Shown: positions 1 through 25,799 of the stretch, in pieces | How positions within the stretch are numbered: position 1 is the stretch's first letter | How the letters are laid out: each line of letters begins with the position of its first letter | The notes under the pieces: generated by a model | What the model was told of the DNA's origin: nothing | The model's database searches: none | The model's input: only the letters and a program-made list of their open reading frames with translations | Translations under genes and position numbers: made by a program | From: Tomocerus qinae | Taxonomy: Eukaryota; Arthropoda; Collembola; Entomobryomorpha; Tomoceridae | Assembly (NCBI GenBank): GCA_020055645.1 | Contig: CM034546.1 | Coordinates: 82,832,001 to 82,896,000 of the forward strand | DNA length: 64,000 nt | Direction: 5' to 3'

Positions 1-245
1 TTAAATAAAATACACCTTAATTAAATAAAATACATCCCAACTAAATAAAATACACCCCAATAAAATAAAATACACCCCAATAAAATAAAATACACCCCAA
101 TAAAATAAAATACACCTTAATTAAATAAAATACACCTTAATTAAATAAAATACACCTTAATCAAATAAAATACACCTTAATCAAATAAAATACACCTTAA
201 TCAAATAAATTACACCTTAATTAAAAAAAATACACCTTAATTAAA
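1..245. repeat. 20-bp minisatellite, AAATAAAATACACC core
   Basis: About twelve tandem copies of a 20-bp unit (TAAATAAAATACACCTTAAT and variants) that run off the left edge. Positions 250-400 hold degenerate relatives of the unit. The reverse complement has the core TTTTATTTAATT seen again at 1115-1545 and 25080-25682. Confidence 0.9.
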
Positions 246-406
246 TTTAAAAAAAACATATAAATTAAATAAAATACATCTACCTAAAGTAAATAAAATA
301 CATCTAAATTTAAAAAAATTCATCGAAATAAAATAAAATGCATACATTGAAATTAAATAAACTACATCTAAATAGGAAAAAAAATATAAATTCATGTCTT
401 AATATA

Positions 407-1059
407 CAGGGTGGCCAAGATTGATGTATACACGAATTTTGACCTTTAATAACTGACGATCGGTTAGGTGTATTACAATAATATGCACACCGTGTGAAAG
501 AGTATGCGTTTCTTAATGAGATTTCTGAATTTGAAGCCCCTCCATTTCCAGGTACCGGCGTAATCGCTTTAGCACTGACCGACCTGAATTTTTACAAAAT
601 TTCTGACTTATTTTCCATTTTTGTAACGATGCATGGGCGTAGTTTCAATAATGTTGTTGGCTTTTCAGCATAAATCTTATCCTCGACGATTCCCCAACGA
701 CTGAAATCACAAGGTGATATGTCCGGTGATCTTGGTGGCCATGAAACCGGTTCTCCCTCACCCATCCGTATTCCTAGGAAATTGGTATCAAACCATTCTG
801 TTACAACTGAAAATCTGAAATGCGCCGGTTGCACCATTTAGCAATGCTAAAGGAATTAATATGGCCAGCCTAATCAAGTTATTTCAAATCACAATCGTTT
901 AGTCACTTTGCAAGATGCGACACCGGCGCATTTTAGACTTTCAGATCATACAGAATGGTTTGATACCCATTTCCTTGGCATATGGATGGGTGAGGGACGA
1001 CAGGTTTTATGGCCACCAAAATCACCGGACTTATCATCCTGTGATTTCAGTCGTTGGGG
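407..1059. mobile_element. Mariner-type transposon remnant
   Basis: A terminus CAGGGTGGCCAAGATTGATG preceded by TA starts at 407. The same terminus type bounds a complete MITE at 45971-46447. Inside lie two decayed transposase fragments in opposite orientation (592-837 minus, 908-1075 plus). The right end is lost where the palindrome at 1060 begins. Confidence 0.7.
592..837 (-). pseudogene. Mariner-family transposase fragment
   Basis: Encodes PAHFRFSVVTEWFDTNFLG, WPPRSPDISPCDFSRWG and EDKIYAEKPTTLLKLRPC. This is the typical mariner/Tc1 stretch around the third catalytic aspartate (PPRSPDxxPxDF). Only about 80 residues remain of a protein usually near 350, so it is not functional. Confidence 0.8.
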
Positions 1060-1075
1060 AAATGTTGATGTATTT
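908..1075 (+). pseudogene. Mariner-family transposase fragment, inverted second copy
   Basis: Encodes QDATPAHFRLSDHTEWFDTH and WPPKSPDLSSCDFSRWG, the same segment as the minus-strand fragment at 592-837 but facing the other way. The two are about 70 percent identical, so they are an old inverted pair or two separate insertions. It breaks off at the palindrome border near 1060. Confidence 0.75.
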
Positions 1076-2452
1076 TATTTATATAATATGCATTTTACTT
1101 AATTTTATGTAGTTTATTAAATTTAGGTAGATGTGTTTTATTTAATTTAGGTAGATGTATTTTATTTAATTTAGGTAGATGTATTTTATTTATTGTAAGT
1201 CGACGTGTTTTATTTAATTTAGGTAGATGTGTTTTATTTAATTTAGGTAGATGTGTTTTATTTAATTTAGGTAGATGTATTTTATTTAATTTAGGTAGAT
1301 GTATTTTATTTAATTTAGGTAGATGTATTTTATTTAATTTAGGTAAATGTATTTTATTTAATTTAGGTAGATGTATTTTATTTATTGTAGGTAGATGTAT
1401 TTTATTTAATTTAGATGTTTTTTTTAAATTTAGATGTATTTTATTTATTGTAGGTAGATGTATTTTATTTAATTTAGATGTTTTTTTTAAATTTAGATGT
1501 ATTTTATTTAATATTGTATGTCTTTTATTTAATTAAAATGTATTTAATTTATATTAAGATATTGTAGTGTTTATAGGAAATGTAATGTACTATCTATATT
1601 GGGGAGACTATTGTACTATAATAATATAAGGTGCGACATGCGCACGGGGGAGACTGGCTGATTGTATCTGTTGAGCGGGGAGTATGCGATCAGGATGAGG
1701 ATGCCGCGGAATAAGTAGACGGACAATCTGCAGTACTTCTTAATTGTCTCTCTTTATTTCTGCCATAGTGGTGCAGACTTGCTTCGCAGACCGAGACCCA
1801 AACGACTGATCCAGTAGCTCGCCAATACTCTACTCCTCGACTGATCGAGTAGAATGCCAATCCTCTACTCATCCCAACTACTGACTTTACAATCTCTTTT
1901 CTGCCTTTCTGTTTCGCTACCCGCTCAACAGATAAAATCAGCCAGTCTCCCCCGTGCGCATGTCGCACCTTATATTATTATAGTACAATAGTCTCCCCAA
2001 TATAGATAGTACATTACATTTCCTATAAACACTACAATATCTTAATATAAATTAAATACATTTTAATTAAATAAAAGACATACAATATTAAATAAAATAC
2101 ATCTAAATTTAAAAAAAACATCTAAATTAAATAAAATACATCTACCTACAATAAATAAAATACATCTACCTAAATTAAATAAAATACATTTACCTAAATT
2201 AAATAAAATACATCTACCTAAATTAAATAAAATACATCTACCTAAATTAAATAAAATACATCTACCTAAATTAAATAAAACACATCTACCTAAATTAAAT
2301 AAAACACGTCGACTTACAATAAATAAAATACATCTACCTAAATTAAATAAAATACATCTACCTAAATTAAATAAAACACATCTACCTAAATTTAATAAAC
2401 TACATAAAATTAAGTAAAATGCATATTATATAAATAAAATACATCAACATTT
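1060..2452. repeat. Large near-perfect inverted repeat with minisatellite arms
   Basis: The left arm 1060-1677 and right arm 1921-2452 are almost perfect reverse complements around a GC-richer 243-bp spacer. The arms differ mainly by copy number: the left has one extra 22-bp unit (TTAGGTAGATGTGTTTTATT type) and one extra block of about 64 bp. The inner 110 bp of each arm is unique sequence beginning TGTAGTGTTTATAGGAAATG and may be part of an LTR or transposon end, but I cannot show this. Confidence 0.92.
1115..1545. repeat. 22-bp minisatellite, TTTAGGTAGATGTATTTTAT
   Basis: Roughly 18 units of TTTATTTAATTTAGGTAGATG with TATTGTAGG and AAATTTAGATG variants. It forms most of the left arm of the palindrome; its mirror is at 2045-2460. 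Confidence 0.9.
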
Positions 2453-2539
2453 AAAAATACATCTAAATTCAATAAAATGCATTTGAATTAATAAAAATAC
2501 ACCAAAATTAAATAATATGCATCTGAATTAAAAACAGAA

Positions 2540-3600
2540 TAATTAATTAATTTTGAATTAATTTTGAAATAAAAAAAGTTTTTTAGGTCAAATCATACTA
2601 AGGTCAGAATTATTTCAGTTAGTAAAAGTCTTTAAACCTGAGGAACCTATACTGACTTTGATTTTAAAACAAATGTAAATATGTGTATTTTTCTGCAGCA
2701 TCAATAATTTTAGCGTACATTTTCTAATTTTGAAATAAAAAATGTTTTTAAGTCCAGTTATGGTAATGTCAGAATTTATTTCAATTAATAAAAATCGTAA
2801 ACCCTGAGGAACTTAAATTGACTTTAATTTTATTCTGCAGTATCATTAATTTCGGCGGACGTTTTCAAATTTAGAAATAAAAAAAGTATTTTAGGTCAAA
2901 TTATAATATTGTCAGAAATTTTTCAGTTAATAAAAATCTTTAAACCTGAGGAACCTATACTGATTTTAATTTTCACACATATGCAAATATGTGTTTTATT
3001 CTGCAGTGTCGACAATTTTAGCGTACATTTTCAAATTTTGAAATAAATTGTTTTAGTAACATCTTTTGGTTCAGTGTGCATTTATTTCAGTAAATAAAAA
3101 TATTAAAACTTGAGGAATCTATACTGATTTTCATTTAAGAACACATAAATATGTGTATTATTCGGCAGTATAATTAATTTTAGCGTACATTTTTAAATTT
3201 TTAACTAATATTATTTTTAATATCCAATTATTGTTATGTCAGAATTTATTTCAGTTAGTAAAAATATTAAAACCTGAGGAACCTATGCTGATTTTAGTTG
3301 TAGAACACATATAAATATGTGTAGTATTTTGCAGTATCAATAATTTTAGCGAAAATTTTCAAATTTTGAAATGAAAAATGTGTTTAACATCATATTATTG
3401 CAATGTCAGAATTTATTTCAGTTAGTAAAAATATTAAAACCTGAGGAACTTATATTGATTTTAATTCTAAATAAAATGTATATATGGGTATTATTCTGCA
3501 GTATCAATAATTTTAGCGTATATTTTCTAATTTTGAAATAAAAAAAGTATTTTAGGTCAAATTATGATAATGTCAGAACGTATTTTAGAATATAGTAAAT
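2540..3600. repeat. 167-bp satellite, left array
   Basis: About six monomers with marker GCAGTATCAATAATTTTAGC at about 2695, 2836, 3003, 3163, 3331 and 3498 (spacing 141-168). Each also has CCTGAGGAACCTATACTGA. The same monomer occurs reversed in the array 23325-25068. Confidence 0.9.
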
Positions 3601-4025
3601 ATATTTATTTCCATAACTTGTAATCTGTTCCCAACCCTTTTAATCCATTTCCAAAACTTGTAATCTGTTTTCAAAAGTTGTAATCTATTTTCAAAACTTT
3701 TAATCTATTTTCAAAACTTGTAATCTATTTCCAACACTTGTAATCTATTTCTAACATTTGTTATCCATTTTCAACATTTCTAATATATCTTCATTAAATG
3801 GAATCCATCATTATTAAACCTTCTCGAACATTTTTTAAGTTTTCCAACATTTTAAAATTATTGCCACATTTTTAAACCTGTCCTAACTTTTTAAACTATT
3901 TCCAAAATTTGTAAACTATTTCCCACATTTTTAAACTATTTTCAATACTTAAAACTATTTTCATCACTTTTAAACTATTTCCATAACTTAAAAACTATTT
4001 CCAATAGTTGAAAACTATTTCCCTA
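3600..4025. repeat. 20-bp minisatellite, ATTTCCAAAACTTGTAATCT
   Basis: Degenerate tandem units that grade from AATCTATTTCCAAAACTTGT to AACTATTTCCAATAGTTGAA. It shares the AAACTATTTCCAA core with the homogeneous 19-bp array at 20885-22846. Confidence 0.85.
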
Positions 4026-4697
4026 TTTAACACTTCGATTTTATTTTCACTAATCCAGATATTTTGAGAACTATTGAATTGAATTTCGTTAACGTGAATT
4101 ATGTATTACGGAATTCTGGTTAAGTTTTCCTTGTAGTAGGAAATAGTTTATAACATTTGTATTTTATTTTCCCCATATAGAAGTTGCTTCCATGATTTAT
4201 TTATTTCTATATAACTGCGCTATATACTGAAAATAACTATCTACAGGGTGTAAAATTGAGGCCTCCCGTACCGGAAAAACCAGAAGTAGCTCAGCAAACT
4301 GTTGATGACAAAGGAAAGGCCGTTCAAAGTATACACTAATAAGAGACAATAAGAGTACTTTGATAAATGTCACTTACCCTTACATGGGTCAAACAAATTA
4401 CTAAATATAAAAAGTTGGAAATAAAATAATAAAACAAATTCTTCTTTATTACGTATTTTATTTCTAAATATAACTTTTTATTTCTAAATATGGGTTTAAC
4501 AGCTTTTCTTAGAACAGTATTAGTAATTTTTCCAACCATTTTTATCAAAATTTTCAAAGGCCAATTTTTCAGCATTTTTCAAGTTCCGGGAATCCCAATT
4601 TAGATGAAAATTTAGAGGAAAGTGGTTGTGTTGTGGCCTCGCTCTGCTCCTCCGTGCGATATCGCAATGTATTATATAGACAAAATGGCACAGTGAA
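4026..4697. other. No gene recognised
   Basis: AT-rich sequence with scattered stops in all frames. I see no coding similarity or repeat structure here. Confidence 0.5.
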
Positions 4698-4699
4698 GC

Positions 4700-4955
4700 C
4701 ATTTCACACACATAACACGCATCGTATAGCCTAGTATATTAAAACTGCTACCAGTCGTATCTGAATTTTTATAATGCTTGAGCGGGTCTATTGCATGTTG
4801 AATATTCTTATAGGTTAATTTCGTCCCATTTAACCATTAAGATTTTACACCATAAAATAGGCCCGCGCAAACATTATAAAAATCCTGATACGACTGGTGG
4901 CAGATTTAATACATTGGGGTATACGATGCGTGTTTTGTGTGATTTCACACCTCAT
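4700..4955. mobile_element. Foldback element, about 250 bp
   Basis: Arms 4700-4790 and 4860-4955 are inverted copies sharing ACACGCATCGTATA and ACCAGTCGTATC. No coding capacity is seen. The target duplication is not clear. Confidence 0.75.
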
Positions 4956-5810
4956 CAAACCAAGGAATTCCATTAATATTATTAAGTGGTGTGCAACACC
5001 GCTTTATAGGGATGCCTGATCTGTCTGTCTGTCCGTCTGCCTGTTAGCACGATAACTCAAAAACGGTTAGAGATAATCAACTCAAACTTACTGTACGTGA
5101 TGTAGGGATGAAAAGCGAGACCCCCTGCCTGTGGGCGTGGTCAAAATATTTAAAATTAGTGTAACTTTAGTTATTGACAATGTAGAACGTCATGAAATGG
5201 TTCGCTCTAAAAGGTTATTTGTTAGGCCATGTCAAGTCACACGTGTAAAAAGGTCATTGAAAAAATTCACTAAAACTGTCATGTAACGTCAAATAATTAG
5301 TTCAATCTTTTTATGCAATTTCATACCACTTTTTTACATCCATTTGGACATGGTTTATTATTTCACTAGGCCTCCACTCCACAGTACTAATTGTGAATTT
5401 CAAAATGGTTACGCATATTAAGGTTCAGGGGTGGTTCAAAATACGGAGAAATTCAATGAGGGTCAGGTTCTGGGGAAGTATCTATGGTATGGCTATATAC
5501 GAATTAAAAATACAGCTACACATATGAATAATAGAAAATTGGCTATATTCTCCCCCCTTGTCAAAAAAGGTGTTTTGGTAAAATGACAATAATTTGAGTT
5601 ATAGACATCGTAGAAAGTCGTGCTTTACAGTAATGAGAAACTGATAAAATTTGCCAACTTCCACTCGCCGACATATGCCACTTTACTCTTTTAGATCCGA
5701 AGTTACAGACAGTTTTCTAAAAATTCCCTACTCTTTCAATGTAAATTCCTACTATTTTCCGTCCAAATGAGTTTCTCTGAAAGGGTCAAATGACAACTGA
5801 TCCAACCTGG
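4956..5810. other. Non-coding, with a dispersed short repeat
   Basis: No gene recognised. The stretch 4985-5100 has GTCTGTCTGTCCGTCTG followed by CACGATAACTC and a downstream ACTCAAACTTACTG. Similar blocks lie at 49860-49940 and 51000-51120, so this is a dispersed repeat family. Confidence 0.5.
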
Positions 5811-6262
5811 GACCAAATTTTCAAAACATCGTAAGTGGGTATCGTATCGTAAGTCGGAGCATTTACGATAATTGGTATTTTCAAACCATTTTATCGTAAT
5901 ATTTATCCTACGATCAGTCGTAAATATACGACACCCCCTGACCCTGTCGTAACTTTACTATTTCCTATGTAGGAGTATGAAATCATTATCCATGGACATT
6001 GCAGCTCAAGTAAAAAATGTGAGAACAAGTAAATTTTGTGACTTCAAATGAGCGGAAGACGTCGGGTTGCCTTATCAACACCATGAAATAGCTGGCAAAA
6101 ATAGCAAAGTTACGATAAGATCAGTGCGTAGGTGCGTAACTTACGACACTATTACGATAATGTTCGAAAATGTCAAAATTTTGCTCATCGTAATAGTCTC
6201 GTAATTATACGATATTGTTAGTTACGATTTTCTAAGATACGATACCTTTCGAAAATTTGGTA
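5811..6262. mobile_element. Foldback element rich in TCGTA/TACGA
   Basis: The ends are inverted (GGACCAAATTTTCAAAACATC on the left, reverse of GAAAATTTGGTACC on the right). The interior is full of TTACGATA/TATCGTAA words. It is non-coding. Confidence 0.6.
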
Positions 6263-6389
6263 CCTGTACAACTACTGTAAAAGGAATTTGAATTAGAGCC
6301 ATGGAAGCCCGAATTTCCATTTACGAATATTGAAAGGTTATCAGAAAAACACAAAATTTTATTCGCAAGTGTCTTGGAAACTACCTTTA

Positions 6390-7373
6390 CTGTTAGAATT
6401 ATCAATTCGCGACCTTTTTCAAATAATAACCGCAGTGAAAATCGCTTCTGATTGGTCGATGCATTTTTGAAATTGGCCAATCAGAGCACAGGATTCCATG
6501 GCAAAATGTTGTATGATTTTCATAAATCATTCCCAGGGGAAATATTTATTTCAACATAGCACTTTTGAACTACGGACGTGTGATAGGAAAGTATACTGAC
6601 TAACACTACAGACTAGCATCATGGCAAACTAATACACTATACTCAACTAGTGATGTAAATAAAATTATATTGGATTAACTTGAACAGTGAAGTTGAAACT
6701 GAAAAGATTACAATACACTATTATAGACTAAATTACTTACTGAACAGAGCAACTGCTTGCATGTGTTACAAATTTGATTATTACTTACTACTATAAGCAG
6801 TCTGAACAAACATATAAGCATAACATTTTGCATCAATATTATCACCACTACTGCACTGCGTATTCATCTCTATGAAGAAGTATAAATGAATTAATTAGAT
6901 TTACTTTTAAATTTACCTTTACAGGGTATCATTGAAAATATTTTCCATATCATTAAAACTTATTTAAGACTAACAAATAATTTTAGCTGATATGCAACGT
7001 AGTTAAATTACTTGCTATATACAGAGTACAATTTTATTACTATTACATTATTATTGTAGCCTTTTCACAGTTTCAACTTCACTGTTCAAGTTAATCCATA
7101 TAATTTTATTTACATCACTAGTTAAGTATTAGTTTGCGATGATGCTACTTAGTAGTCTGTAGTGTTAGTCAGTATATTTTCCTATCACAAGTCCGTAGTT
7201 GAGCTATGTTGAAATAAATATTTCCCCTGGAAATGATTTATGAAAATCATATAACATTTTGCCATGGAATTCTGTGCTTTGATTGGTCAATTTCAAAAAT
7301 GCATCGACCAATCAGAAGCGATTTTCACTGCGGTTATTATTTGAAAAAGGTCGCGAATTGATAATTCTAACAG
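6390..7373. mobile_element. Long-TIR non-autonomous element flanked by TA
   Basis: Arms 6390-6720 and 7055-7373 are about 90 percent identical inverted copies beginning CTGTTAGAATTATCAATTCG. The flanking TA dinucleotides suggest a TA target. The interior is non-coding. Pieces of the same family (CCAATCAGAG, CCATGGCAAA, GGGGAAATATTTATT) recur at 14474-15113, 36290-36440 and 40885-41045. Confidence 0.85.
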
Positions 7374-8014
7374 TATTATCTTAGGCAACTACATAATGTC
7401 ACTGTGGGATACTGTTTATTTTCATATTTATTTCGCATAAAACAACTTCAAAATAATAACAATGAAATTCGCGTGCCAAATAACTTACAAAGAAATCCCA
7501 GGGCTCTATTTACTTTTCCTTTTACGTAGTCATATTATGTGTCTTAAAAGTTTTTTACCTGAACTTTATGCAGCACAAATCAGGTTCAGACTTCAGACAG
7601 TACAGATGACAGAGTGAAAGTGAGTAGAGAAGAAATATTGAGGCAGAACTCAATTCAATCATCACCATCTTTCAGTCAACCCGCTTTATTTATCATTAAT
7701 TGTGATCCATCTAAGAGTTGAGCTTTTACAACATGTGATTGATCCGCTCAACTGTTATAAAAATCCTAGTCTAGTATGCCCTAGTCGACCGAGCAGCGAA
7801 TGCATGCAATAGCAACAACTAGAAAGCAAAGGTATTGCTGGTGATGTTGAGATGCAATATGCAATGCACATGTAAATACCTACTCTAGCTAGCCCTCCAC
7901 CTACACACCAACGCTTGAACTTCGTAGACCATCTCATTTCATAAAATTTAGCAATTTTATTTAGTCTAGTTATGGGTCATCATTGTGACCTTTTGTGACT
8001 GTCCACAGCCTGAA
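7374..8014. other. No gene recognised
   Basis: Non-coding sequence without clear repeats; open frames here are short and show no family features. Confidence 0.5.
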
Positions 8015-8230
8015 CTACAACAGCTACAGAGTCAAGTAAGATCTCGTTGTAAATGGCAGATAAAAACTTGGGTGATGAAGGTCCGCTGTGTTTAATATCT
8101 GTACCCTTATTCCCCATAAGGGGAGATATTTTATTACTAAAATAAAAATTGCAAACTTGTGGACCTCTATCACCCAAGTTATTTAATTGGCTTTTCAACG
8201 AGGTATTTTTCGACTCTGTAGCTGTTGTAG
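8015..8230. mobile_element. Foldback MITE, 216 bp
   Basis: Ends CTACAACAGCTACAGAGTC and its exact reverse. Arms of about 90 bp share CTCGTTGAAA and AACTTGGGTGAT-GAGGTCC with a short loop. It is non-coding; a 216-bp hairpin if transcribed. Confidence 0.85.
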
Positions 8231-9060
8231 AACGGCTCAATTTTAGAATCGAAATTGTCAAGTTTTCCATTTAGCTAAGAATCCAACCTTAAGGCTTCTA
8301 AAAAGTTAATATTAATGCCTTAGAATTTGTAAATTGTTTCTTAGATTTTCAAAATTAATATTGACTGTTTTGAAACGATAATAATGACCTACCTTAAAGA
8401 ATTTTGAAACCATTTTTATGAACATTTACTTTAAATTTACGTTAAAATTACATCACTTTACATCATTACTAACAACAACTTTGAAAGCATGTGGTTTGTA
8501 CTATATAATGTATCGGTTTCATATTATTGTAATTTTTTATTTACGGCTACCGAAGGCGAGTCAAAATTTGAAAGGGGCATACGTATTATTTAGGCATATT
8601 CGCAGTTCGCTGCTTTTGTCCAAAATGAGGTAAAAATAATCAAAAATTCGGCTTAATTGAGCCTAGCGATTTCTTTATGTTATGATTTTGAAAGTAAGAC
8701 ATTTTTCCTTAATGCCTATTTAATACAGCCTTGCAGGACTACAATACTATTCGGTATCCAAATCATCTAATTTTTAAAGCGTAAAATGAGTTATTTCGGT
8801 TAACGAAATTTTTATGCGAAATTCATTAAAAAATAAAAAAAACAATTGTAGATTAACTTGGCTGTAAACAACAAGGTCACGCACCTTTTCGCGGCATCTA
8901 CAAATATATATATTTACCATATTTAGGATGCTTTGCATTATTTTGCCATTTTGCATTTTGAAGACTAAAATCCGATTCTTGACTTGCTTTAGAAGTCCTA
9001 CGTTAATTAGTTAATTCTCTATGGTAATAATTTTATGTTATGCATGCTCATTAAAATAAT
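8231..9060. other. Upstream region of the transposase gene
   Basis: AT-rich sequence with no coding similarity. It should hold the promoter of the gene beginning at 9061, but no single TATA-box or initiator stands out against the AT background. Confidence 0.4.
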
Positions 9061-10599
9061 ATGGATAGTGATAATCAAACATTTCGAATAATCTCCGAAA
9101 TTCACCGAAACGACGACCTGTGTTTATGTAGTACCACTGGGAAAATGAAAGGTAAAATAAAAAACAACTGCAAAGCCAATGATGTATACCAACTAATAGC
9201 AGAAGGAAAGGAAATTCCATTTACCACAAAAGAAATTAGCACGATATGGCCTAGAAGCAGAAGAATTCATCAGTTGCGTCTCCTTTTTCGAAAACGATGT
9301 GAAAGATGTCTGAAATCTAAGAAGTTGATAGCCACACTTATATCTACCGGTCGAAATGTAAACAAAAATTTCCATGGTAAGCCAATGATCAACAACCCTA
9401 AAGCCGTAAATGAGGTCAATCTTCACTCTTCTTTCAAACCACTTCTGAAAAATGACCACCAACCTATCCAGACTGGAACCTCAGAATACGACACTGACCC
9501 TTATAACTGCCTTGATAGTTTCCAAGAAGACAAAGTGGACGAAAAAGACACTAATTTTGGGAAAATCAGGAAAAATAACATCAAGTTAACAGGTTCAAAT
9601 TTAAAAAGGAAATGTAAAAGTGAATTAAAAAATGAGAAATGCGACATCATGAAATTTGATTTTAGTAAAAAATGGCCAAACTCAATTGCTTATTATATTA
9701 ACATTTCTGCCAGTGATTGGAATATGTTGTGGGATACAAGATCAAAATTATTAAATCAAAGAAATCTAAAACATCTGAGTGACAGAATACATGTTAAAGT
9801 GTTTTCTAAAACTGGTCATATATTTTCCCGTGACAGAGGTGTAAAAGTAGGGAAGAATTTTGTGACGGGAAGGGGTTACTGTTCTCGTCCAAATGAGAAC
9901 GGAAAATGTGGTGCAAAATTCCGATTTTACATAGAAATTCCAAAATCAGATTCACTGGATGCTATTGTACAAATTATTAAATTTGGCAAAACAAACTATC
10001 GAAGAAATAGAAATCAACCACCGATAAGCGTTCCGGTAAGAGGGCTCTCGCGGGAAGAAGCCAAGCAAAGATTGAAACACATTCCTCCACTTACCTTTAA
10101 AATGCAGGAGTATGCAAAGCTATCTCAGGAACAAAAAAACGCTATTCCGGAAATAAGATTAATAGGAAAAGATGTGGATCGTAAAATAAAAAGTGAGGCA
10201 AGATTGAAAGCCAGAATTTTAAACAATGATTACTTGGAAATGAAAAGAATGCAAACAATGCAAAATGTAAATTTTATTCGATATGTTTCGGAAATAGGAC
10301 GACCTTTTGGGTTTTCATTGGCTTCAGATAAAAGTTTAGAAAATGCCGTGGATATTGCCATTTCCCAAAATGGACTTTGCTTGTACTTGGATAGTACTGG
10401 GTCGTTAATTGATTCTAATCAAATAAAAAATGGAGTGGAAGTGCATGGGCCCGTTTATGTCTACCAAATAATTACATGTCAGCGTCCCATAAATGATCCG
10501 AAGGCATCATCATGTATTCTGCCGTTGTATTGCTTCATCAACACCCCCATGACACTGAAGAAATCACGAATAGGCTGCTATCATTTTCCAACGATTTAA
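9061..10599 (+). CDS. Transposase N-terminal reading frame
   Basis: The longest unique open frame in the window (512 codons). Lysine and arginine rich, with the C-x8-C pair of CSRPNENGKCG, a helical stretch MQEYAKLSQEQKNAIPEIR, and the LYLDSTG motif near its end. The coding similarity ends at about codon 485 (TCQRPINDPKASS); the last 28 residues are out of frame read-through. The ATG is the first after an upstream in-frame stop region. Confidence 0.7.
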   Translation: MDSDNQTFRIISEIHRNDDLCLCSTTGKMKGKIKNNCKANDVYQLIAEGKEIPFTTKEISTIWPRSRRIHQLRLLFRKRCERCLKSKKLIATLISTGRNVNKNFHGKPMINNPKAVNEVNLHSSFKPLLKNDHQPIQTGTSEYDTDPYNCLDSFQEDKVDEKDTNFGKIRKNNIKLTGSNLKRKCKSELKNEKCDIMKFDFSKKWPNSIAYYINISASDWNMLWDTRSKLLNQRNLKHLSDRIHVKVFSKTGHIFSRDRGVKVGKNFVTGRGYCSRPNENGKCGAKFRFYIEIPKSDSLDAIVQIIKFGKTNYRRNRNQPPISVPVRGLSREEAKQRLKHIPPLTFKMQEYAKLSQEQKNAIPEIRLIGKDVDRKIKSEARLKARILNNDYLEMKRMQTMQNVNFIRYVSEIGRPFGFSLASDKSLENAVDIAISQNGLCLYLDSTGSLIDSNQIKNGVEVHGPVYVYQIITCQRPINDPKASSCILPLYCFINTPMTLKKSRIGCYHFPTI

Positions 10600-10704
10600 A
10601 TGATTTCGCACAAAACCGAGAAAAGGAAAATCTAGAGTCAAGCTATAAAGAAGAAAATTTACATTTATTCAAACAAATAACAACGGATTTTAGCTATGCG
10701 TTAA

Positions 10705-16323: not shown

Positions 16324-16534
16324 ATGCAAGTAAAAATTATAAAAATCGTCTTCATACACCGTTTATGCAGTTTTAAACGAAATTTGATTGTACTACAAAT
16401 AGAAAGTAAACTAAATGGAAAAAACACCCAAGCAAATGAAATGATTTTTGGAAATAATTGCAAAATTAAAAACAAGCCGGCAATAAAATCCGATGAACTG
16501 GTTCAGTCCATGAACATATTAAAAGTTGAAAAAG
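16324..16534 (+). CDS. Linker exon before first Ulp1 module
   Basis: Open frame ending KSDELVQSMNILKVEKG at a good donor G|GTACGT. The next exon starts at 16612 after CTCATTTTAG and the split valine codon joins in frame across a 77-bp intron. The upstream border is uncertain. Confidence 0.5.
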
Positions 16535-16611
16535 GTACGTGCCATAATATTAAATGCGTTTTGGGTACCTTTACTTCTTTCCATCAAAATAATGAAGTAT
16601 ACTCATTTTAG

Positions 16612-17357
16612 TTTCAAAAGAAAAAGAAAATTTTAATGACTCATATAAACACTTGGAACTTGAAGATTTGTATCAAATGTTGCCCGATAAACCTGAAGAT
16701 TTGCCTGCATAAATTTGTTGCCGTGCTGGTCCTGAACTAATTTATTTAAGTGATGTTGCAACCTTGGTACCTAATGAATGGGTTGCAAGCTCTGTGATAT
16801 CGGCTTGTTTCCAGTTTATGCGAGCAGATTATTGTGACACAAAGAGAAAAATTGTAATTCAAATTGGTTCCCATGATATGGTCAGTTGTATTCAGGACAA
16901 GAATGAAAATTCTTTAATATGGAATACATTTGAAGAATGCTTGAAGCACATAACCAATAACGCGGAAGTTTTACTCGTGCCAATTTTATTAATTAATCAT
17001 TGGGTATTGGTGCAAATGAATATCAAAAAGAGGGAGATGCTGTTTTATGATTCAAAAATAAGTTTGGGATATCATCAATACTACTATACTGCCGCTCAAC
17101 ACTTAGCAAATATATTGCAAGACAAATTGAAAATCGAGGAATGGAGGATATCAATACCTCAAATTTTGCAACAAATGTCAAATCATGAGTGTGGGTATTT
17201 TATTATTGAGGTAGCAGAGAAAATATTAATGGGATCTAACCCCATGTTGGACAAAAGCAGTATGAAAAATTACCGAGCCAAAACCATGCGATATATATTA
17301 CAAAAATTTGGTGCTGAGGCTGAACATCTATTGAAAAATACTGAAGAAAAATACTGA
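16612..17357 (+). pseudogene. Ulp1-like (C48) cysteine protease module A, with in-frame stop
   Basis: SUMO-protease fold module. The catalytic series is visible: His in LINHWVLVQMN, Asp in MLFYDSKIS, and Gln six residues before Cys in QQMSNHECGYF. A substrate-entry segment PELIYLSDVATLVPNEWV aligns to module B. A TAA at 16710-16712 interrupts the conserved start (EDLPA, stop, ICCRAGPE) while the frame continues intact on both sides for over 200 codons. The triad is complete, so the stop is probably recent. Module B (17665-18545) is a tandem paralogue about 30 percent identical. Confidence 0.85.
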
Positions 17358-17625
17358 CCACAGGCTTTTTCAAAATGTAAAACGAGTGAACGCAAGCTAT
17401 AAGAGAAAGCGAACATTAAGAAATAAAAGATTTATAGAATGGGACAAAATAAATAAGAGCATCTTATCGAAACTTGAAAAAGAAAATCCAATGGAAAAAA
17501 TAGGACTAAATCAAAAGTTAGATGTTTCACAAAAACCAATGACGGAAAAAACGGTATTTTCAGCTATTACTAAAACTTTTTTAGACTTTAAACATTTATT
17601 CAATTTTTTAAAATGTCATGCATAG
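17358..17625 (+). CDS. Basic linker between the two protease modules
   Basis: Reads NASYKRKRTLRNKRFIEWDK and KEKENPMEKIGLNQKLD-like lysine-rich sequence ending KTVFSAITKTFLDF. It is one frame off module A and is followed by an intron-like stretch ending TTTCACAG at 17664. No known domain. Confidence 0.4.
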
Positions 17626-17664
17626 CTTTAATAATGATTAAAATATAAAAAATTTATTTCACAG

Positions 17665-18545
17665 CGACTGATTTTGGAAATTTGGACACTATTAATTCAA
17701 CAACAGACTATGAAAAATATTCTTCGGAAGAATTGCGACGTATGCTGCCCAGCATTATTGAAGATCCGTACAATGTGTGCCATAAAATAGGATGGGAAGA
17801 AATATACTTGCATAATATTGCTAGTTTACTTCCAAAGGCTTGGTTGGACGACTCACTAATTGACTGTTGTCTCCTATTGTTTCAAGAGGACTCTCGGCAA
17901 CCGCATATCCAAGTAGCATCATCAAAATTATGTCAATTGACAAACCAAAACATTTGGATCTCTAATGATATGACGGTTAAATATTTGACTCATGAGGCAA
18001 AACAAATAATTGTTCCCATTTTACTTTTAAATCATTGGGTATTGATAGTTGCTGATGTTTTGAATTTAAAATTAACTATTTTTAATTCGCTGAACCACAA
18101 AATGTATGGTAAATACTATAGTAAAGTGAAAGAGACTTTGACTAAAGTTTTTAGACACAAATTCAATATTTTTAAATGGACTTTAGTGAAAGCCAAACCT
18201 ACTTTTATTCAGAAATCGCACCATGAATGTGGATTATACGTTCTTGCCAAAGCACGCCATGTAATTGAAGGTGAAAATAGTTCTGAAATTGATACAGATA
18301 ATATCCATAAATACAGAGGTATATTAATGCGATACGTCCTTCAAAAATGTAATATCAGTTCTATGAATGATTTCATCGATACAAAAGGAGGTAAGGATAT
18401 GTTCCTAAAAGTTCGAAGTGAAAACGACCGGTGCCATAAATTATCCCAGGAACGACAGAGTCAAAGCAATTTATGGTGTAGAATAGATCAACCAATTCAA
18501 AAAAAGGATGGGATATTTGACCAAAATATAATTAATTTAGATTAA
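17665..18545 (+). CDS. Ulp1-like (C48) cysteine protease module B
   Basis: The exon opens after acceptor ATTTATTTCACAG and reads 293 codons to a TAA with no break. Conserved parts are EEIYLHNIASLLPKAWLDDS, His in LLNHWVLIVAD, and QKSHHECGLYVLAKA with Gln six residues before the catalytic Cys. The acidic member of the triad is replaced: LTIFNSLNH has Asn where module A has Asp in FYDS. Some C48 peptidases tolerate Asn. The C-terminus (VRSENDRCHKLSQERQ) is polar and unrecognised. Such domains are carried by several DNA transposon families, and the likely target is a SUMO-like protein. I infer it is the last exon of the transposase gene. Confidence 0.85.
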
Positions 18546-20754
18546 CGTTGTTAAGGTAATATCAACGTAACAAACTTTTATTAGCTGCTAATTTGCACCA
18601 GAGAAATGTAAATCAATTTTTATTGTACGGCTAAAATACATAAACTTAATGCAATTATAAATATTACACTCTTGATATATAAATCATTGTCAATTAAATG
18701 TGATGAAAATTATTAGTAAGTTGTTTTTAATAATAGTAATACTGGTATTCAATGCAGCTATAACAAATCAATTTAACGTCCTCTTTTGCATGAATATTTC
18801 AGATAAAAGGCTACCTGGTTATGTTTTTGACTAGTATTAATGGTAATATATGCATGGATATTATATTATACATTATTTGATGATACCTATATAAATCAAG
18901 CTGCAGCTGTTTACCTATAACAAATACCATAACATTACGGTTTTAAATAAAATTTATGGGTTAAGAAATTTTTGTAAAGTGGCTTAATCTTCAGGATTAA
19001 ATTCGGTTTATACAAATAAAGTGCTTCCGTTCACTAAATCAGGTTAAATGTTTGATTAATTATTAACCACTTAAAATGCAATCGATTTTAACCTCACTAA
19101 TTTAGAAAATTTAAATATAAGTTAGCTTGAGGCTAATATAAACCGTAGGGTTATAGTTATGATGTTTCTTATGTTTAGCCTCCATCATAACTACTCATGG
19201 ATATGGCTGATAAAATTAGATAGAGCAGCTTAAAGTAGAACGCCTTTTATGATGCATTATTAAAAAATGCATTACTTATAAAGACAGATAGGCATTTCTT
19301 TAAAAAAAATTAATTCAAAATAAAGTACAACACAAGAAATAAATAACAGCAGACGTAGGAAAATAAATTTCGGCACGATCAGAAGTTAAGCATGAGATAT
19401 TGTTGATCTAAATATGTCTTTGTTTGAGGTAGATTATTAAGTCGTCAGTAGTACTTTATATGAATGTCCAATCTGCTTCTGTCCGTCCTCCTAAGCAACT
19501 GGATGACTCAATCAAGAACTGATTAAGGTAATAACTGTTGAAACTGTTGGAATATGTTATGCATATTTCTCTTGCGTCTGCCCAGTTACAATAAATTCAT
19601 TTTTTACACTGATACATTATCACGGAATTTTTTCAACGAAATATTACAATATTATCGCAATATTTTTTTTGTTCCTGCCTAGTTATACGCAGTTCATCTT
19701 TTACATTCATACCTTCTCAAGGAATATTTTCAGTGCTCAATTCCACTTCATGGTTATACACGGAGAAAAGTGTTCACTTTTTCGAATTTTGGCAGCTAAA
19801 AGTAGTTCATGAACTTTTCAATTCTTTTCAAAATTCGCCGTTTCGAAATTTTTGAGGAGGTCTACTTGACAGGTAGATAGATAAGAACATTTTCTAGAAG
19901 ACACTAGTTTCATTAAATGATTCATAAAAGTCGTCAAAAACATTTATTTTTTGAAGAAGAGATTTTTAAAAGAAAAACTTTTGTATCTCCAAAATTTCGA
20001 TTTGATTTGTTTACGACTTAACTACCAAAAGTTTGGTAGGTAAGTAGAGAATATACTCTAGCCAGTTACCCAAAAAGGGATTTGGAAATAATTGTTTCTC
20101 CAAAATTTTTTTTAATTTTTAACACGCCATGAAACAAGCGTATAAAAATGTTCATATCTACCTGACTGTCAATTTAAACAAGAATTGAATGAGAAGTTTT
20201 GGAGCTGTCGCTGTCAATCAAAACGACCTCTACGAAAATTTGAGCACACGATTTTCCGAATAGTGTATTAAAGAAAAGGTGCACTTCTAAATAATTATGT
20301 TTAATAAAGTTTTTTTGGCTACCAAACTTTGAAACTGAAATTCAAAAATGACTCGTTCACTGCTCACTCCAATGCATTCAAAGACATTAACTTTTCTACG
20401 TAATCTAAGGATCGAAATTGATTTCACGTTTAAAAATGGACATGTAATAATATTTATGTTAAAATGTAGTGTGATAGTCTATTCGATAGAAAAAGGTCTC
20501 ACTTTTCAGCTATCTGTCCAGAGTGATCACTTTCTTTTTAAAAATGGGATCTCGGTCTGTCGTTTTCAAAACATTTGAATTGAACTCTATGCATTTCGTT
20601 CGGCCCTTTCATATTGAAGGTGATACACCTATGAATCAATTTTAATACCCTCACCTCATGTTACCTATGGGGTATTAACTTCAAAATTTAAAACTTTCTA
20701 CCTAACTGATGCACGTGAAAAAACAACAGTATTAACATTCGAAATACCGAAATT
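18546..20754. other. Inner spacer of the large element, no gene recognised
   Basis: About 2.2 kb of AT-rich sequence with no coding similarity. A weak inverted pair (GACAGGTAGATA near 19875 and its reverse near 20165) is the only structure I see. Confidence 0.5.
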
Positions 20755-20845
20755 TATTTTTACATTTTCATGTAGTTTAATTTCCAAATTAAAAAACGTA
20801 CGCTATAATTACTGATACTGCAGAATAATACTAATAATAACATTT
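20755..20845. repeat. Isolated fragment of the 167-bp satellite
   Basis: Contains GTACGCTATAATTACTGATA then CTGCAGAATAATAC, matching the monomer of array 23325-25068 in the same orientation. It lies on the inner side of the 19-bp array. Confidence 0.75.
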
Positions 20846-20884
20846 TCCAAATGCTTAAAATAGTTTCCAATGTATGGAATCTAT

Positions 20885-22846
20885 GTCCAATCCTGGAAAC
20901 TATTTCCAATCCTGGAAACTATTTCCAAATTTGGAAACTATTTCCAATCCTGGAAACTATTTCCAAATTTGGAAACTATTTCCAATCCTGGAAACTATTT
21001 CCAATCCTGGAAACTATTTCCAATCCTGGAAACTATTTCCAATCCTGGAAACTATTTCCAATCCTGGAAACTATTTCCAATCCTGGAAACTATTTCCAAT
21101 CCTGGAAACTATTTCCAATCCTGGAAACTATTTCCAATCCTGGAAACTATTTCCAATCCTGGAAACTATTTCCAATCCTGGAAACTATTTCCAATCCTGG
21201 AAACTATTTCCAATCCTGGAAACTATTTCCAATCCTGGAAACTATTTCCAATCCTGGAAACTATTTCCAATCCTGGAAACTATTTCCAATCCTGGAAACT
21301 ATTTCCAATCCTGGAAACTATTTCCAATCCTGGAAACTATTTCCAATCCTGGAAACTATTTCCAATCCTGGAAACTATTTCCAATCCTGGAAACTATTTC
21401 CAATCCTGGAAACTATTTCCAATCCTGGAAACTATTTCCAATCCTGGAAACTATTTCCAATCCTGGAAACTATTTCCAATCCTGGAAACTATTTCCAATC
21501 CTGGAAACTATTTCCAATCCTGGAAACTATTTCCAATCCTGGAAACTATTTCCAATCCTGGAAACTATTTCCAATCCTGGAAACTATTTCCAATCCTGGA
21601 AACTATTTCCAATCCTGGAAACTATTTCCAATCCTGGAAACTATTTCCAATCCTGGAAACTATTTCCAATCCTGGAAACTATTTCCAATCCTGGAAACTA
21701 TTTCCAATCCTGGAAACTATTTCCAATCCTGGAAACTATTTCCAATCCTGGAAACTATTTCCAATCCTGGAAACTATTTCCAATCCTGGAAACTATTTCC
21801 AATCCTGGAAACTATTTCCAATCCTGGAAACTATTTCCAATCCTGGAAACTATTTCCAATCCTGGAAACTATTTCCAATCCTGGAAACTATTTCCAATCC
21901 TGGAAACTATTTCCAATCCTGGAAACTATTTCCAATCCTGGAAACTATTTCCAATCCTGGAAACTATTTCCAATCCTGGAAACTATTTCCAATCCTGGAA
22001 ACTATTTCCAATCCTGGAAACTATTTCCAATCCTGGAAACTATTTCCAATCCTGGAAACTATTTCCAATCCTGGAAACTATTTCCAATCCTGGAAACTAT
22101 TTCCAATCCTGGAAACTATTTCCAATCCTGGAAACTATTTCCAATCCTGGAAACTATTTCCAATCCTGGAAACTATTTCCAATCCTGGAAACTATTTCCA
22201 ATCCTGGAAACTATTTCCAATCCTGGAAACTATTTCCAATCCTGGAAACTATTTCCAATCCTGGAAACTATTTCCAATCCTGGAAACTATTTCCAATCCT
22301 GGAAACTATTTCCAATCCTGGAAACTATTTCCAATCCTGGAAACTATTTCCAATCCTGGAAACTATTTCCAATCCTGGAAACTATTTCCAATCCTGGAAA
22401 CTATTTCCAATCCTGGAAACTATTTCCAATCCTGGAAACTATTTCCAATCCTGGAAACTATTTCCAATCCTGGAAACTATTTCCAATCCTGGAAACTATT
22501 TCCAATCCTGGAAACTATTTCCAATCCTGGAAACTATTTCCAATCCTGAAACTATTTCCAATCCTGGAAACTATTTCCAATCCTGGAAACTATTTCCAAT
22601 CCTGGAAACTATTTCCAATCCTGGAAACTATTTCCAATCCTGGAAACTATTTCCAATCCTGGAAACTATTTCCAATCCTGGAAACTATTTCCAATCCTGG
22701 AAACTATTTCCAATCCTGGAAACTATTTCCAATCCTGGAAACTATTTCCAATCCTGGAAACTATTTCCAATCCTGGAAACTATTTCCAATCCTGGAAACT
22801 ATTTCCAATCCTGGAAACTATTTCCAATCCTGGAAACTATTTCCAA
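20885..22846. repeat. Homogeneous 19-bp minisatellite, about 103 copies
   Basis: Unit TCCAATCCTGGAAACTATT. Only the first few units vary (CCAAATTTGG) and one unit at about 22540-22557 lacks a G. Because 19 is not divisible by three and the unit has no stop on this strand, all three plus frames stay open and spell the same 19-residue peptide repeat. The resulting 559-690 codon frames are artefacts of the repeat, not genes. Confidence 0.97.
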
Positions 22847-22859
22847 TAATTGGAATAAT

Positions 22860-23324
22860 TAGAAACCAAATCCAACACTTAAAAAGTGATTCCAGGACTT
22901 CGACAACCATTTCAGCACTATGAAACCATAACTAACATCGCAAATTATAGCATCAAACTCTTTTTTCCTTTAAAATTGAAACTTTACTTTAAATGTGTCT
23001 GTACAGAAAAATAACAAACATAAATACTAAATACGTAAAATTAAAAGTAAATTTAGTTTATAAAATTTTATGAAATTTCGACATTAGCATATCGTGTTAT
23101 TAAAACTATTTTATATATAAAATTTAAAATTCATACGCAAATTGTATGCTGAAAATATTTGGCCAACAAAATAATGGATTCTATATTTATATCTATACTG
23201 TAGTTAAGTAATTCATCAACAGAAATAGATTTATTTGGCACCTAACAAGTTAGCCCAAATTAAAAATCATTATTGGGACTTTAACAAATAAATTTCTAAT
23301 ATTTTGATGTATATTTATTTGCTC
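22860..23324. other. Spacer between minisatellite and satellite
   Basis: AT-rich, no gene and no repeat recognised. Confidence 0.5.
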
Positions 23325-25068
23325 CAAAAATAAAATCTATACTGGTTCCTCAGGTTTTAAGATTTTTATTAACTGAAATGTATTCTCACATTACCATAAT
23401 TTGATCTTAAAAACATCTTTTATTTTAAAATTTGAAAAGGTACGCTAAAATTATTAATAATGCAGAATAATACACATATTTATATGTTTTTTAAAGTTAA
23501 AATCAGTAGGGGTTCCTCAGGCTTTAAGATTTTTATTTACTGAAATAAGTTCTGGTATTAACATAATTTAATCTTAAAAACATTTTTTATTTCAAAATTT
23601 AAAAATTGTACGCTAAAATTATTAATACTGCAAAATAATACACATATTTATATGTTCTTTAAAATTAAAATCACTATAGGTTCCTTAGGTATCAAGATTT
23701 TTTTATTAACGGAAATAAATTTTGACATTACCATAATTTAATCTTAAAAACATTTTTTATTTTAAAATTTGAAAATGTACACTAAAATTGTTTATACTGC
23801 AGAATAATACACATATTTATATGTTCTTTAAAATTAAAATCAGTAGGGGTTCCTCAGGCCTTAAGATTTTTATTTACTGAAATAAGTTCTGACATTACCA
23901 TAATTTGATATTAAAAATATTTTTTATTTCAAAATTTGAAAATGTAAGCTAAAATTATTAACACTTCAGAATAATACACATATTTATATGTTCTTTAAAA
24001 TTAAAATCAGTATAGGTTTCTCAGGTATCAAGATTTTTAATAACGGAAATAAATTCTGACATTACCATAATATGATATAAAAATATGGTTTATTTCAAAA
24101 TTTAAAAATGTGCGCTAAAATTATTTATACTGCAGAATAACACACATATTTATATGTTCTCTAAAATTAAAATCAGTAGGGGTTCCTCAGGCTTTAAGAT
24201 TTTTATTTACTGAAAAAAGTTTTGATATTACCATAATTTGATATTAAAAATAAATTTTAATTCAAAATTAGAAAATGTACGCTTAAATTATTAAAACTGC
24301 AGAATAATACACATATTTATATGTTCTTTAAAATTAAAATCAGTATAGGTTTCTCAGGTATCAAGATTTTTATTAACGGAAATAAATTTTGACATTACCA
24401 TAATTTAATCTTAAAAACATTTTTTATTTCAAAATTTAAAAATGTGCGCCAAAATTATTTATACTGCAGAATAATACACATATTTATATGTTCTTTAAAG
24501 TTAAAATCAGTAGGGGTTCCTCAGGCTTTAAGATTTTTATTTACTGAAATAAGTTCTGACATTACCATAATTTGATATTAAAAATATTTTTTATTTCAAA
24601 ATTTGAAAATGTAAGCTAAAATTATTAACACTTCAGAATAATACACATATTTATATGTTCTTTAAAATTAAAATCAGTATAGGTTTCTCAGGTATCAAGA
24701 TTTTTAATAACGGAAATAAATTCTGACATTACCATAATATGATATAAAAATATGGTTTATTTCAAAATTTAAAAATGTGCGCTAAAATTATTTATACTGC
24801 AGAATAATACACATATTTATATGTTCTTTAAAATTAAAATCAGTAGGGGTTCCTCAGGCTTTAAGATTTTTATTTACTGAAATAAGTTCTGACATTACCA
24901 TAATTTGATATTAAAAACATTTTTTATTTCAAAATTTAAAAATTGTACGCTAAAATTATTAATACTTCAGAATAATACACATATTTATATGTTCTCTAAA
25001 ATTAAAATCAGTATAGGTTCCTCAGGTATTAAGATTTTTATTTACGGAAATAAATTCTAATAATAATA
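23325..25068. repeat. 167-bp satellite, right array with two alternating monomer types
   Basis: About ten monomers in reverse orientation to 2540-3600, each with CTGCAGAATAATACACATAT. Two classes alternate strictly: GGGGTTCCTCAGGCTTTAAG (at about 23507, 23843, 24178, 24513, 24846) and AGGTTTCTCAGGTATCAAG-like (at about 23676, 24013, 24345, 24682, 25015). The repeat unit is therefore a dimer of about 335 bp. Confidence 0.92.
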
Positions 25069-25079
25069 ATAAAATTAGA

Positions 25080-25682
25080 CGAGTTTTATTTAATTGTGAT
25101 TTATTTTATTTAATTGCGACCTATTTTATTTAATTGTGATTTATTTTATTTAATTGGGATTTATTTTATTTAATTGTGACTTATTTTATTTAATTGTAAT
25201 TGATTTTATTTAATTGTGATTTATTTTATTTAATTTTGATTTGTTTTATTTAATTGTGATTTATTTTATTTAATTTTGATTAATTTTATTTAATTGTGAT
25301 TTATTTTACTTAATTTTGATTTATTTTATTTAATTGTGATTTATTTTATTTAATTGGGATTTATTTTATTTAATTGGGATTTATTTTATTTAATTGTGAT
25401 TTATTTTATTTAATTGTGACTTATTTTATTAAATTTTAATTGTTTTAATTGTGATTTATTTTATTTAATTTTGATTTGTTTTATTTAATTGTGATTTATT
25501 TTATTTAATTGTGATTTATTTAATGTACTTACGATGTATTTTATTTAATTTAGCTATATTTTATTTAATTGAGGTGTATTTTATTTAATTTAGCTATATT
25601 TTATTTAATTAACTATGTTTTATTTAATTTTATTTAATTTAGGTGTTTTTTATTTAATTTAGGCGAATTTGATTTAATTTAG
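25080..25682. repeat. 20-22 bp minisatellite, TTATTTTATTTAATTGTGAT
   Basis: About 28 units of TTATTTTATTTAATTGTGAT, ending in GTGTATTTTATTTAATTTAG variants. It is the mirror partner of the array at 1-245 and 2045-2460. Confidence 0.93.
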
Positions 25683-25799
25683 TTTCTTGTTACTTTCCTT
25701 GAGGTTTTGAAATTCTTTGTTAGCCAGGGGCTAAAATGGCCAAAATTGGGGCTATGTGAGCTGAGAAAACCCCCTTGGTCTGTGGAAGCAACTTGCGGA

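Follow-up and report, generated by a model that had tools for sequence, protein, structure and literature searches.

The mirrored arrangement of tandem repeat arrays around coding sequences raises the question whether the window, i.e. the whole stretch of 64,000 bp of the Tomocerus qinae genome analyzed here, contains one giant transposon of the Foldback type. The window indeed holds a real Foldback-type element of 25,842 bp (C1:82831868-82857709, window -132 to 25709), which is called A in the following, with B, C, D and E for relatives in the same genome and C1, C2 etc. for chromosomes. Its terminal inverted repeats of 34 bp are perfect at both ends and are located just outside the mirrored arrays. 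A search of the 334-Mb genome with the outer 28-mer of this repeat revealed exactly two occurrences in inward-facing orientation (reversed control: 0), which are the two ends of A, and no second copy of A was found in this way. The original prediction of one 25-kb element was correct in that there is a single unit with 34-bp repeats, but the ends are at -132 and 25709 instead of 1 and 25682 (Table 1).

Both sides of A carry a minisatellite, a 167-bp satellite and a TTTCCAA array in mirrored order, and the first two are on opposite strands as predicted: window 2037-3585 matches 25597-24047 in inverted orientation with 76% identity over 1,604 aligned columns, and -132..374 matches 25709-25207 with 76% over 517 columns. 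The TTTCCAA arrays match in the same orientation only and therefore the mirror applies to order, not to strand, for this array. The left arm contains the minisatellite in both orientations due to a nested inverted duplication, which bears a 24-bp version in both orientations. It also includes what we recognized by eye as presumably a mariner-like fragment. Using 335 bp of the 167-bp satellite as query in a genome search that skips very common words, we obtained 12 matches, every one within the window. A minisatellite related to that of A is found elsewhere in the genome, also as inverted pairs, namely at C1:35.0458-35.0804 Mb and C1:140.244-140.257 Mb, and the surroundings of A are rich in arrays, among them an upstream stretch of ~22 kb that consists of a 78-bp repeat. 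A larger foldback of ~55-60 kb, considered because of inverted matches between -4284..-3189 and 50877-49823 and between -2168..-807 and 54965-53981, was rejected since the order is not mirrored and a 40-bp repeat recurs elsewhere.

Table 1. Features of element A (window coordinates).
Feature	Position	Strand	Evidence
Whole element A	1..25709, extends left to window -132	+	Inward-facing terminal 28-mer, sequence of both ends
Outer left-arm minisatellite, 20-bp unit	1..388, from ~window -99, adjoining the left terminal repeat	-	Inverted match -132..374
Nested inverted duplication in left arm	1061..2509 (1061-1682 vs 2509-1917, 88%)	.	Inverted match within the left arm
Inner left-arm minisatellite	2039..2532	-	Inside inverted match 2037-3585 vs 25597-24047
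Left-arm 167-bp satellite, ~6 copies	2560..3594	-	Inverted matches to right arm, ~77-84%
Left TTTCCAA minisatellite, 20-bp unit	3606..4022	+	Oriented like right TTTCCAA array
Transposase remnant, five tblastn pieces in three frames	9085..11683 (9085-10545, 10548-10706, 10823-11014, 10992-11537, 11537-11683)	+	tblastn with transposase ORFs of B
Reverse-transcriptase ORF, 371 aa, inside A; presumably Penelope-like (by eye)	12279..13394	-	RVT_1 E 0.0034, below curated cut-off
First Ulp1/C48 protease gene	16641..17357, open 16713-17357	+	Pfam PF02902 E 1.7e-12
Second Ulp1/C48 protease gene, open	17649..18545	+	Pfam PF02902 E 7.3e-10
Stray 71-bp piece of 167-bp satellite, just inside right TTTCCAA array	20777..20847	+	79% identity
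Right TTTCCAA array, 19-bp unit, 103.9 copies, 99% matches	20875..22847	+	Repeat detection
Right-arm 167-bp satellite, 10.4 copies, 333-bp period fits too	23326..25058	+	Repeat detection
Right-arm minisatellite, 20-bp unit	25084..25682	+	Repeat detection
Right terminal inverted repeat, 34 bp	25676..25709 (partner at window -132 to -99)	-	End sequences, 28-mer search

Between the arms, a DDE transposase and a tandem pair of C48 proteases had been proposed. Both Ulp1 genes are open and recognized by Pfam, but the transposase consists of frameshifted remnants, and other repeats have invaded the interior of A. The identity of the A transposase to that of B is 41% over residues 199-498 and to that of E ~22%. 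MULEs are characterized by DDE catalytic residues and by a C-x2-H motif located between the second D and the E, and tblastn and an alignment of the open pieces revealed transposase motifs common to the relatives. LDSTG and [TS]D[FY]S are present in A, B, D and E (the ORF of C breaks at the LDSTG position), CxxH is present in all five, and the Glu block in A, B and C, with the ORFs of D and E stopping before it. A conserved Cys/His block is visible in the alignment, although the Pfam models for MULE, FLYWCH and PHD matched none of the pieces, with E-value limits of 10 for A, B, D and E and of 0.1 for C. A and its relatives are labeled here as putative MULEs, a name that draws on these motifs and on 9-bp target duplications. 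In a protein database, no match was obtained with any of three queries, namely the transposase of E, one transposase ORF of B and the second protease of B. Solved structures gave only two irrelevant matches (E 0.15 and 0.59), and viral contigs searched with a B ORF 28 pattern matches and 0 relatives; the single-sequence fold prediction for the 514-aa transposase piece of A was unusable (pLDDT 34). The 9-bp duplication expected around A did not materialize, as the flanks agree at 4/9 strictly and at 7/9 only when four bases are skipped, a level which ~10% of random point pairs reach as well. In summary, A is a single, old copy without an uninterrupted transposase and without a clear target duplication.

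The first protease of A has His, Asp and Cys all in place and in the second one Asn replaces this Asp, as is the case for the second protease of the relatives. C48 pairs are carried by A and B, and a residue comparison of seven loci with both strands read showed H-D-C in the first and H-N-C in the second protease in 4/4 complete pairs examined. For C, D and E, a Cys box and an NHxxP motif are visible, and the OTU profile is matched with E 6.2e-4, 9.1e-3 and 2.4e-4 (20.7, 16.9 and 22.1 bits); as all scores are below the curated cut-off of 23.3 bits, they are called OTU-like only. Each of the five lineages read carries either a pair of Ulp1 genes or OTU-like domains with weak profile matches, a recurrent association which may point to a common requirement for acting on SUMO or ubiquitin.

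For copies with the same boundaries as A the genome search remained empty, but relatives recur as bounded units. The E family has 20 termini, which form six inward-facing pairs 7.7-25.5 kb apart (20-25 kb in 4/6) and eight single ends, with 0 in the control; E-family pairs are located, for example, at C2:57.9 Mb, C7:1.1 Mb and C4:16.5 Mb. The arms consist of a 166-bp satellite ending at the same few bases, and they are ~3-4 kb long in the gene-bearing elements of 20-25 kb. Where the extent of an E-family array is readable, it comprises at least ~17-24 repeats. To evaluate target duplications, the six E pairs and one B pair were compared with 42 mismatched pairings. A 9/9 duplication was present in 5/7 pairs (three strict, two with a one-base shift) and at least 8/9 in 6/7, the pair on C10 having none, and 0/42 mismatched pairings reached at least 6/9. 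Hence, satellite-armed elements of 7-25 kb are found at several genomic places, mostly between 9-bp target duplications. For the E family, insertion into a pre-existing satellite was rejected, because its two arms have opposite orientations and its target duplications flank them on the outside. Moreover, the 3' arms of other copies resemble the 3' arm of E more than their own 5' arms do, and the transposase strand predicted beforehand from arm identity was right in 3/3 copies; two further copies with already known strand agree with arm identity. E copies carry the 5' and 3' arms of their own lineage, i.e. the arms are inherited together with the element.

The B family comprises 21 termini (control 0), and an alignment of 18 end sequences shows unrelated flanks outside the shared end, with L063 having no end there and L061 and L062 being diverged. 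A, C and E all possess long inverted arms that contain tandem repeats. In the B pair at 32.02 Mb, a long arm faces a short one, and for the right arm the match is confined to the last part-monomer and the terminal sequence (query 9572-9928). The B copy at 18.0 Mb is rearranged, and no left inverted arm was found at locus B in the 20 kb read upstream. Locus C has inverted satellite arms and no recognizable target duplication. At locus D the satellites on the two flanks differ, and at both B and D the arrays on the two sides do not match.

At the level of sequence, satellites from one family do not appear to be related to those of another. A common origin was not seen at the sensitivity used for 36 monomer pairs: comparing the A monomer with the 170-bp array of locus B and the 168-bp array of locus C, 2 and 3 of 200 shuffles scored equally, and two such pairs are about the chance expectation over 36 pairs at a reporting limit of 10 of 200. 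The idea, taken from Tetris, that the satellite monomer arises from the terminal sequence was considered too, but the two did not match significantly in any of A, B and E.

Based on the perfect end repeats, the inverted arms and the relatives of the same plan, A is very probably an old copy of a giant Mutator-like DNA transposon with Foldback architecture, which comprises satellite arms, a DDE transposase and ubiquitin/SUMO-type proteases. The predicted Foldback type with satellite-built inverted arms agrees with terminal repeats outside the arrays and with relatives bearing 9-bp duplications, the uninverted third array being an exception. Though old and broken itself, A is related to elements that moved, arms included, to several places in this genome. 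The transposase would bind the ends and probably many sites in the arms and would move the whole unit via cut and paste, and unequal crossing-over or slippage could alter arm length. In each lineage, a new satellite may have arisen through amplification of the subterminal sequence of that lineage, and the transposase or the silencing machinery of the host might be the targets from which the proteases remove SUMO or ubiquitin. It is conceivable, but short of probable, that this transposon lineage is a satellite-DNA factory, in which unrelated monomers of nucleosome length (~153-167 bp) in each family form kilobase arms and are carried to new sites, with proteases of two unrelated folds countering the silencing of the arms.

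The origin of satellite DNAs and their reach to many chromosomes is an old open question. Here, gene-bearing transposons of 20-25 kb took satellite arms of ~3-4 kb to several sites. In other families of this chromosome-level genome, unrelated satellites occupy the same position, so that the question becomes testable copy by copy with regard to arm age, expansion rate and silencing. For Tetris it was shown that transposon ends can seed a satellite (PMC4079207), and our data suggest that A and its relatives represent one route by which satellite DNA is born and spread.

A reading compatible with a giant MULE is that A is FB-NOF, Rehavkus or Tetris as already known and that only the size is new, which we consider unlikely. 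Tetris, a foldback element of Drosophila virilis, is described with ~220-bp repeats in inverted ends and target duplications, and fibre-FISH showed long arrays of its repeats between two Tetris ends (PMC4079207); satellite-length repeats in inverted ends, and target duplications in the relatives, are also found here. However, none of the three structurally complete copies reported has conserved ORFs, and for one copy an end with three or four repeats is described (PMC4079207), whereas the E elements have coding interiors, sizes of 20-25 kb in 4/6 and at least ~17-24 repeats where an array is readable, and several families each carry an unrelated satellite. Rehavkus MULEs share the 9-bp duplications with our relatives and the minisatellite just before the 3' terminal repeat with A, which has an additional one on the 5' side, but their terminal repeats are reported as 26-400 bp and they possess a PHD finger (PMC6446971). 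In contrast, arms are in the kilobase range on both sides here (~3-4 kb in E) and Pfam detected no PHD finger in the transposase ORFs of A-E, which sets them apart from Rehavkus as described. Alternatively, A could be a composite, in which inversions or nested insertions placed two independent satellite foldback elements around unrelated transposon debris. The lack of a target duplication and of a second copy, the related minisatellites and their inverted pairs elsewhere and the invaded interior would fit, but this is very improbable given an identical repeat at both ends whose 28-mer occurs nowhere else, a 167-bp satellite found only in the two arms of A and relatives built on the same plan. 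That an ordinary short-ended transposon landed in or beside existing arrays of host DNA, for which the array-filled neighborhood and the non-matching arrays at loci B and D might speak, is hardly credible, because such an insertion keeps one orientation on both sides, yet the arms of A, C and E are inverted, the satellites are enclosed by the terminal repeats and the target duplications, and in the E family the 3' arm of E is matched more closely by the 3' arms of different copies than by their 5' arms.

Taken together, A and its relatives belong to the Foldback/Rehavkus/Tetris-like kind in a new variant form. FB-NOF of Drosophila melanogaster likewise has long inverted arms of tandem repeats, 9-bp duplications and an associated coding segment, but its repeats are short, and to our knowledge it has no Ulp1 pair. 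A cited work calls FB-NOF non-autonomous in its title. The Phantom MULEs and Tm1 of root-knot nematodes also combine a MULE-type transposase with Foldback-like ends and 9-bp duplications, the typical target duplication of MULEs (PMC3169594, PMC6446971). Aphid Phantoms have a minisatellite after the transposase ORF and some Phantoms lack the FLYWCH zinc finger (PMC6446971), for which there was no match here either, and the redundant motif of Tm1 is ~14 bp (PMC3169594); satellite-length arms or a Ulp1 pair are not part of these descriptions. Galileo shares long inverted ends with internal repeats, but its transposase belongs to another superfamily, P (PMC3573991, PMC3688188). The original prediction of a size far beyond known elements holds in comparison with the descriptions in PMC4079207, PMC6446971, PMC3169594, PMC3573991, PMC3688188 and PMC6431247 only. 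According to a review on giant transposons, the longest member of one set of Pack-MULEs measures 7 kb (PMC6431247), so that a length of 20-25 kb would extend the size range known for this superfamily.

Tandem repeat analysis and self-comparison, with 30 kb read upstream of the window, confirmed the noted mirror order of three arrays around the coding interior of element A: a 20-bp minisatellite, a 167-bp satellite and a TTTCCAA minisatellite. The 20-bp minisatellite and the 167-bp satellite had been described as lying on opposite strands, and both are inverted between the two sides; the TTTCCAA arrays are not, their left-right matches being in the same orientation only. The ends had been placed at window positions 1 and 25682; an identical, perfect 34-bp sequence lies inverted just beyond the arrays and puts them at -132 and 25709. 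The outer 28-mer (up to three mismatches) has exactly two matches in 334 Mb, facing inward, and the reversed control pattern has none. Therefore, A is delimited by these termini (see the table).

A protein search for related transposases gave 10 matches, one of them A's own and two at locus B. Four of the loci found in this way (B, C, D and E) were read over 30-40 kb each, and satellite arrays of 153-174 bp are present in every one. In the E family, arm ends at many places (a minimum, as 39 of 3,438 candidates were scored) agree to within four bases. The terminal 30-mer of E has 20 genome matches, namely six inward-facing pairs, four of which enclose E transposase matches, and eight single ends (control pattern: 0). 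The corresponding search for the B family located 21 termini (control: 0), and an alignment of 18 sequences, in which the stretch L063 has no end at this point and L061 and L062 are diverged, showed unrelated flanks past the shared end. Target duplications were analyzed in the seven pairs with both flanks read, the six E pairs and one B pair with less than a full monomer in its right arm. A strict 9/9 duplication is present in three (E itself, C7 and B), the C2 and C4 pairs also reach 9/9 if one right-end base is counted as target, the C1:42.0 pair has 8/9 and the C10 pair none; among 42 mismatched left-right pairings used as control, none reached 6/9. Several places are thus shown to hold 7-25 kb units whose satellite arms are inverted; most of these units lie between 9-bp duplications, and they were therefore inserted whole. 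Two closely spaced B-type termini on C1 are possibly a miniature derivative.

At locus C the 153-bp satellite is inverted on two sides with 85.6% identity over about 4.5 kb, and no target duplication was recognised with the outer ends traced approximately; the similarity of its copy at 11.05-11.08 Mb extends past the arm into the flank, possibly as the result of a segmental duplication. Locus B itself has no left inverted arm within the 20 kb read upstream, its copy at 18.0 Mb is rearranged, and locus D has different satellites on its two sides.

Arm identities to the E 3' arm predicted the transposase strand of the C7, C2:57.9 and C4 pairs, and all three predictions, recorded before the transposase search, were right; the C10 and C1:42.0 pairs have no transposase match and fall outside this test. 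Copies at C1:46.96 Mb and C2:5.16 Mb also fit (strand known beforehand, 3' arm alone seen). Furthermore, the C7 3' arm is 96% identical to the E 3' arm, and E's own 5' arm 92%. Therefore, the satellites are inherited as parts of the element and not locally expanded.

The transposases share, as far as the ORFs reach, LDSTG, [TS]D[FY]S, CxxH and a Glu block, which we take to be the MULE DDE plus C-x2-H pattern; the Pfam MULE, FLYWCH and PHD models gave no match, and the A-type transposon is probably a MULE. Both A and B encode two C48 proteases in tandem. Two protein searches for Ulp1 genes gave 23 and 17 matches, A's own included, and the closest relatives of A's proteases lie on contig C21. 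Four complete pairs were examined, those of A and B and two on C21 that are 96% identical. In every one of them the catalytic residues are His-Asp-Cys in the first protease and His-Asn-Cys in the second, a difference that may point to a conserved division of labour. At three other loci the residue is Asp (C9) or Asn (C21:32.7 kb; second protease of the 18.0-Mb locus). In C, D and E the transposase ORF instead includes an OTU-like stretch with visible Cys box and NHxxP motif (E-values 6.2e-4, 9.1e-3 and 2.4e-4, all below the Pfam cut-off), so that, judged by sequence, every one of the five lineages read has either paired Ulp1 genes or an OTU-like domain.

The A copy itself is broken. Its transposase matches fall into five pieces and three frames, with both Ulp1 genes open; the interior contains a reverse-transcriptase ORF among other repeats, and the left arm a mariner-like fragment (by eye) and a nested inverted duplication (self-comparison). 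Divergence between the two arms is about one fifth to one quarter. The original prediction had looked to a flanking 9-bp duplication and to further copies. No clear duplication was found (4/9 strictly, or 7/9 after skipping four bases, as about 10% of random point pairs do), the two 28-mer matches are A's own ends, and a 335-bp piece of the 167-bp satellite had no match outside the window in a search skipping very common words. Our reading is that A is old and present as a single copy. The A-type minisatellite also occurs elsewhere: it has 79 matches with up to three mismatches in all, and those with 0-1 mismatch are confined to the right arm of A; two inverted pairs of it are possible further elements of this kind. 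With its perfect inverted ends, and relatives inserted as units, A is a real giant Foldback-type transposon with satellite arms, as predicted, broken in this copy and mobile in its relatives.

Mechanistically, a MULE-type transposase would work by cut and paste, unequal exchange would make the arms grow and shrink, the arm repeats could offer many binding sites, and the proteases might oppose SUMO- or ubiquitin-dependent silencing. Sequence comparison gave no support for an origin of the monomers from terminal sequence. Other repeats in and around the window are included in the table.

Coordinates of element A, related units and other repeats (C, contigs of the same genome; L, individual sequence stretches)
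Feature	Location	Details
Element A	C1:82831868-82857709 (window -132 to 25709)	25,842 bp
Tandem-pair proteases	window 16713-17357, 17649-18545; loci B, L038, L039, L042, L043	Asp first, Asn second in 4/4
Reverse-transcriptase ORF in A	window 12279-13394	
E inward-facing pairs	C1:42.00, C1:83.07, C2:57.91, C4:16.47, C7:1.12, C10:0.11 Mb	7.7 to 25.5 kb
B pair	C1:32.02 Mb	
Two B-type termini	C1:156833-157140	inward-facing, 308 bp apart
A-type minisatellite, inverted pair	C1:35045803-35080435	left(-)/right(+) as in A; ~34.6 kb, first to last match
A-type minisatellite, inverted pair	C1:140244473-140257021	left(-)/right(+) as in A; ~12.5 kb, first to last match
Ulp1 loci on C21	15.6, 32.7, 55-58, 80-83 kb	two tandem pairs ~25.1 kb apart, same orientation, 96% identity over 3.6-kb stretches compared; two mirror-image single matches besides
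156-bp satellite	locus D 23995-40000 (L030-L033)	at least 102.7 copies, 16 kb, up to end of stretch read; 1,503-aa transposase ORF with OTU-like stretch nearby
78-bp tandem repeat	C1:82803227-82825414 (L019-L021)	~22 kb, ~90% alike, few kilobases upstream of A
Inverted repeat	window 42844-43494 / 44320-44969	94%, ~650 bp
Aconitase-like ORF	window 42075-42581	minus strand; adjoins the 94% inverted repeat
Small foldback or MITE-like inverted repeat	window 6388-7375	90%; pieces recur at window 14503, 15000, 40855
Small foldback or MITE-like inverted repeat	window 56387-57332	96%
40-bp minisatellite, TGTTGATTTTAATAGTCAA type	window 50271-50887; locus C 12720-12836; locus E 25145-25705; L064 2966-3206	several separate loci

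OTU has been described in MULEs before: an 'Ovarian Tumour Gene' motif is listed for a cnidarian MULE (PMC6446971). Among the matches listed from the open-access (PMC) literature, titles and abstract beginnings mention no autonomous element of this build, and passages of a giant-transposon review from 2019 (PMC6431247) do not use the word satellite. The nearest elements among those listed are Tetris (PMC4079207), Rehavkus and Phantom (PMC6446971) and Tm1 (PMC3169594).
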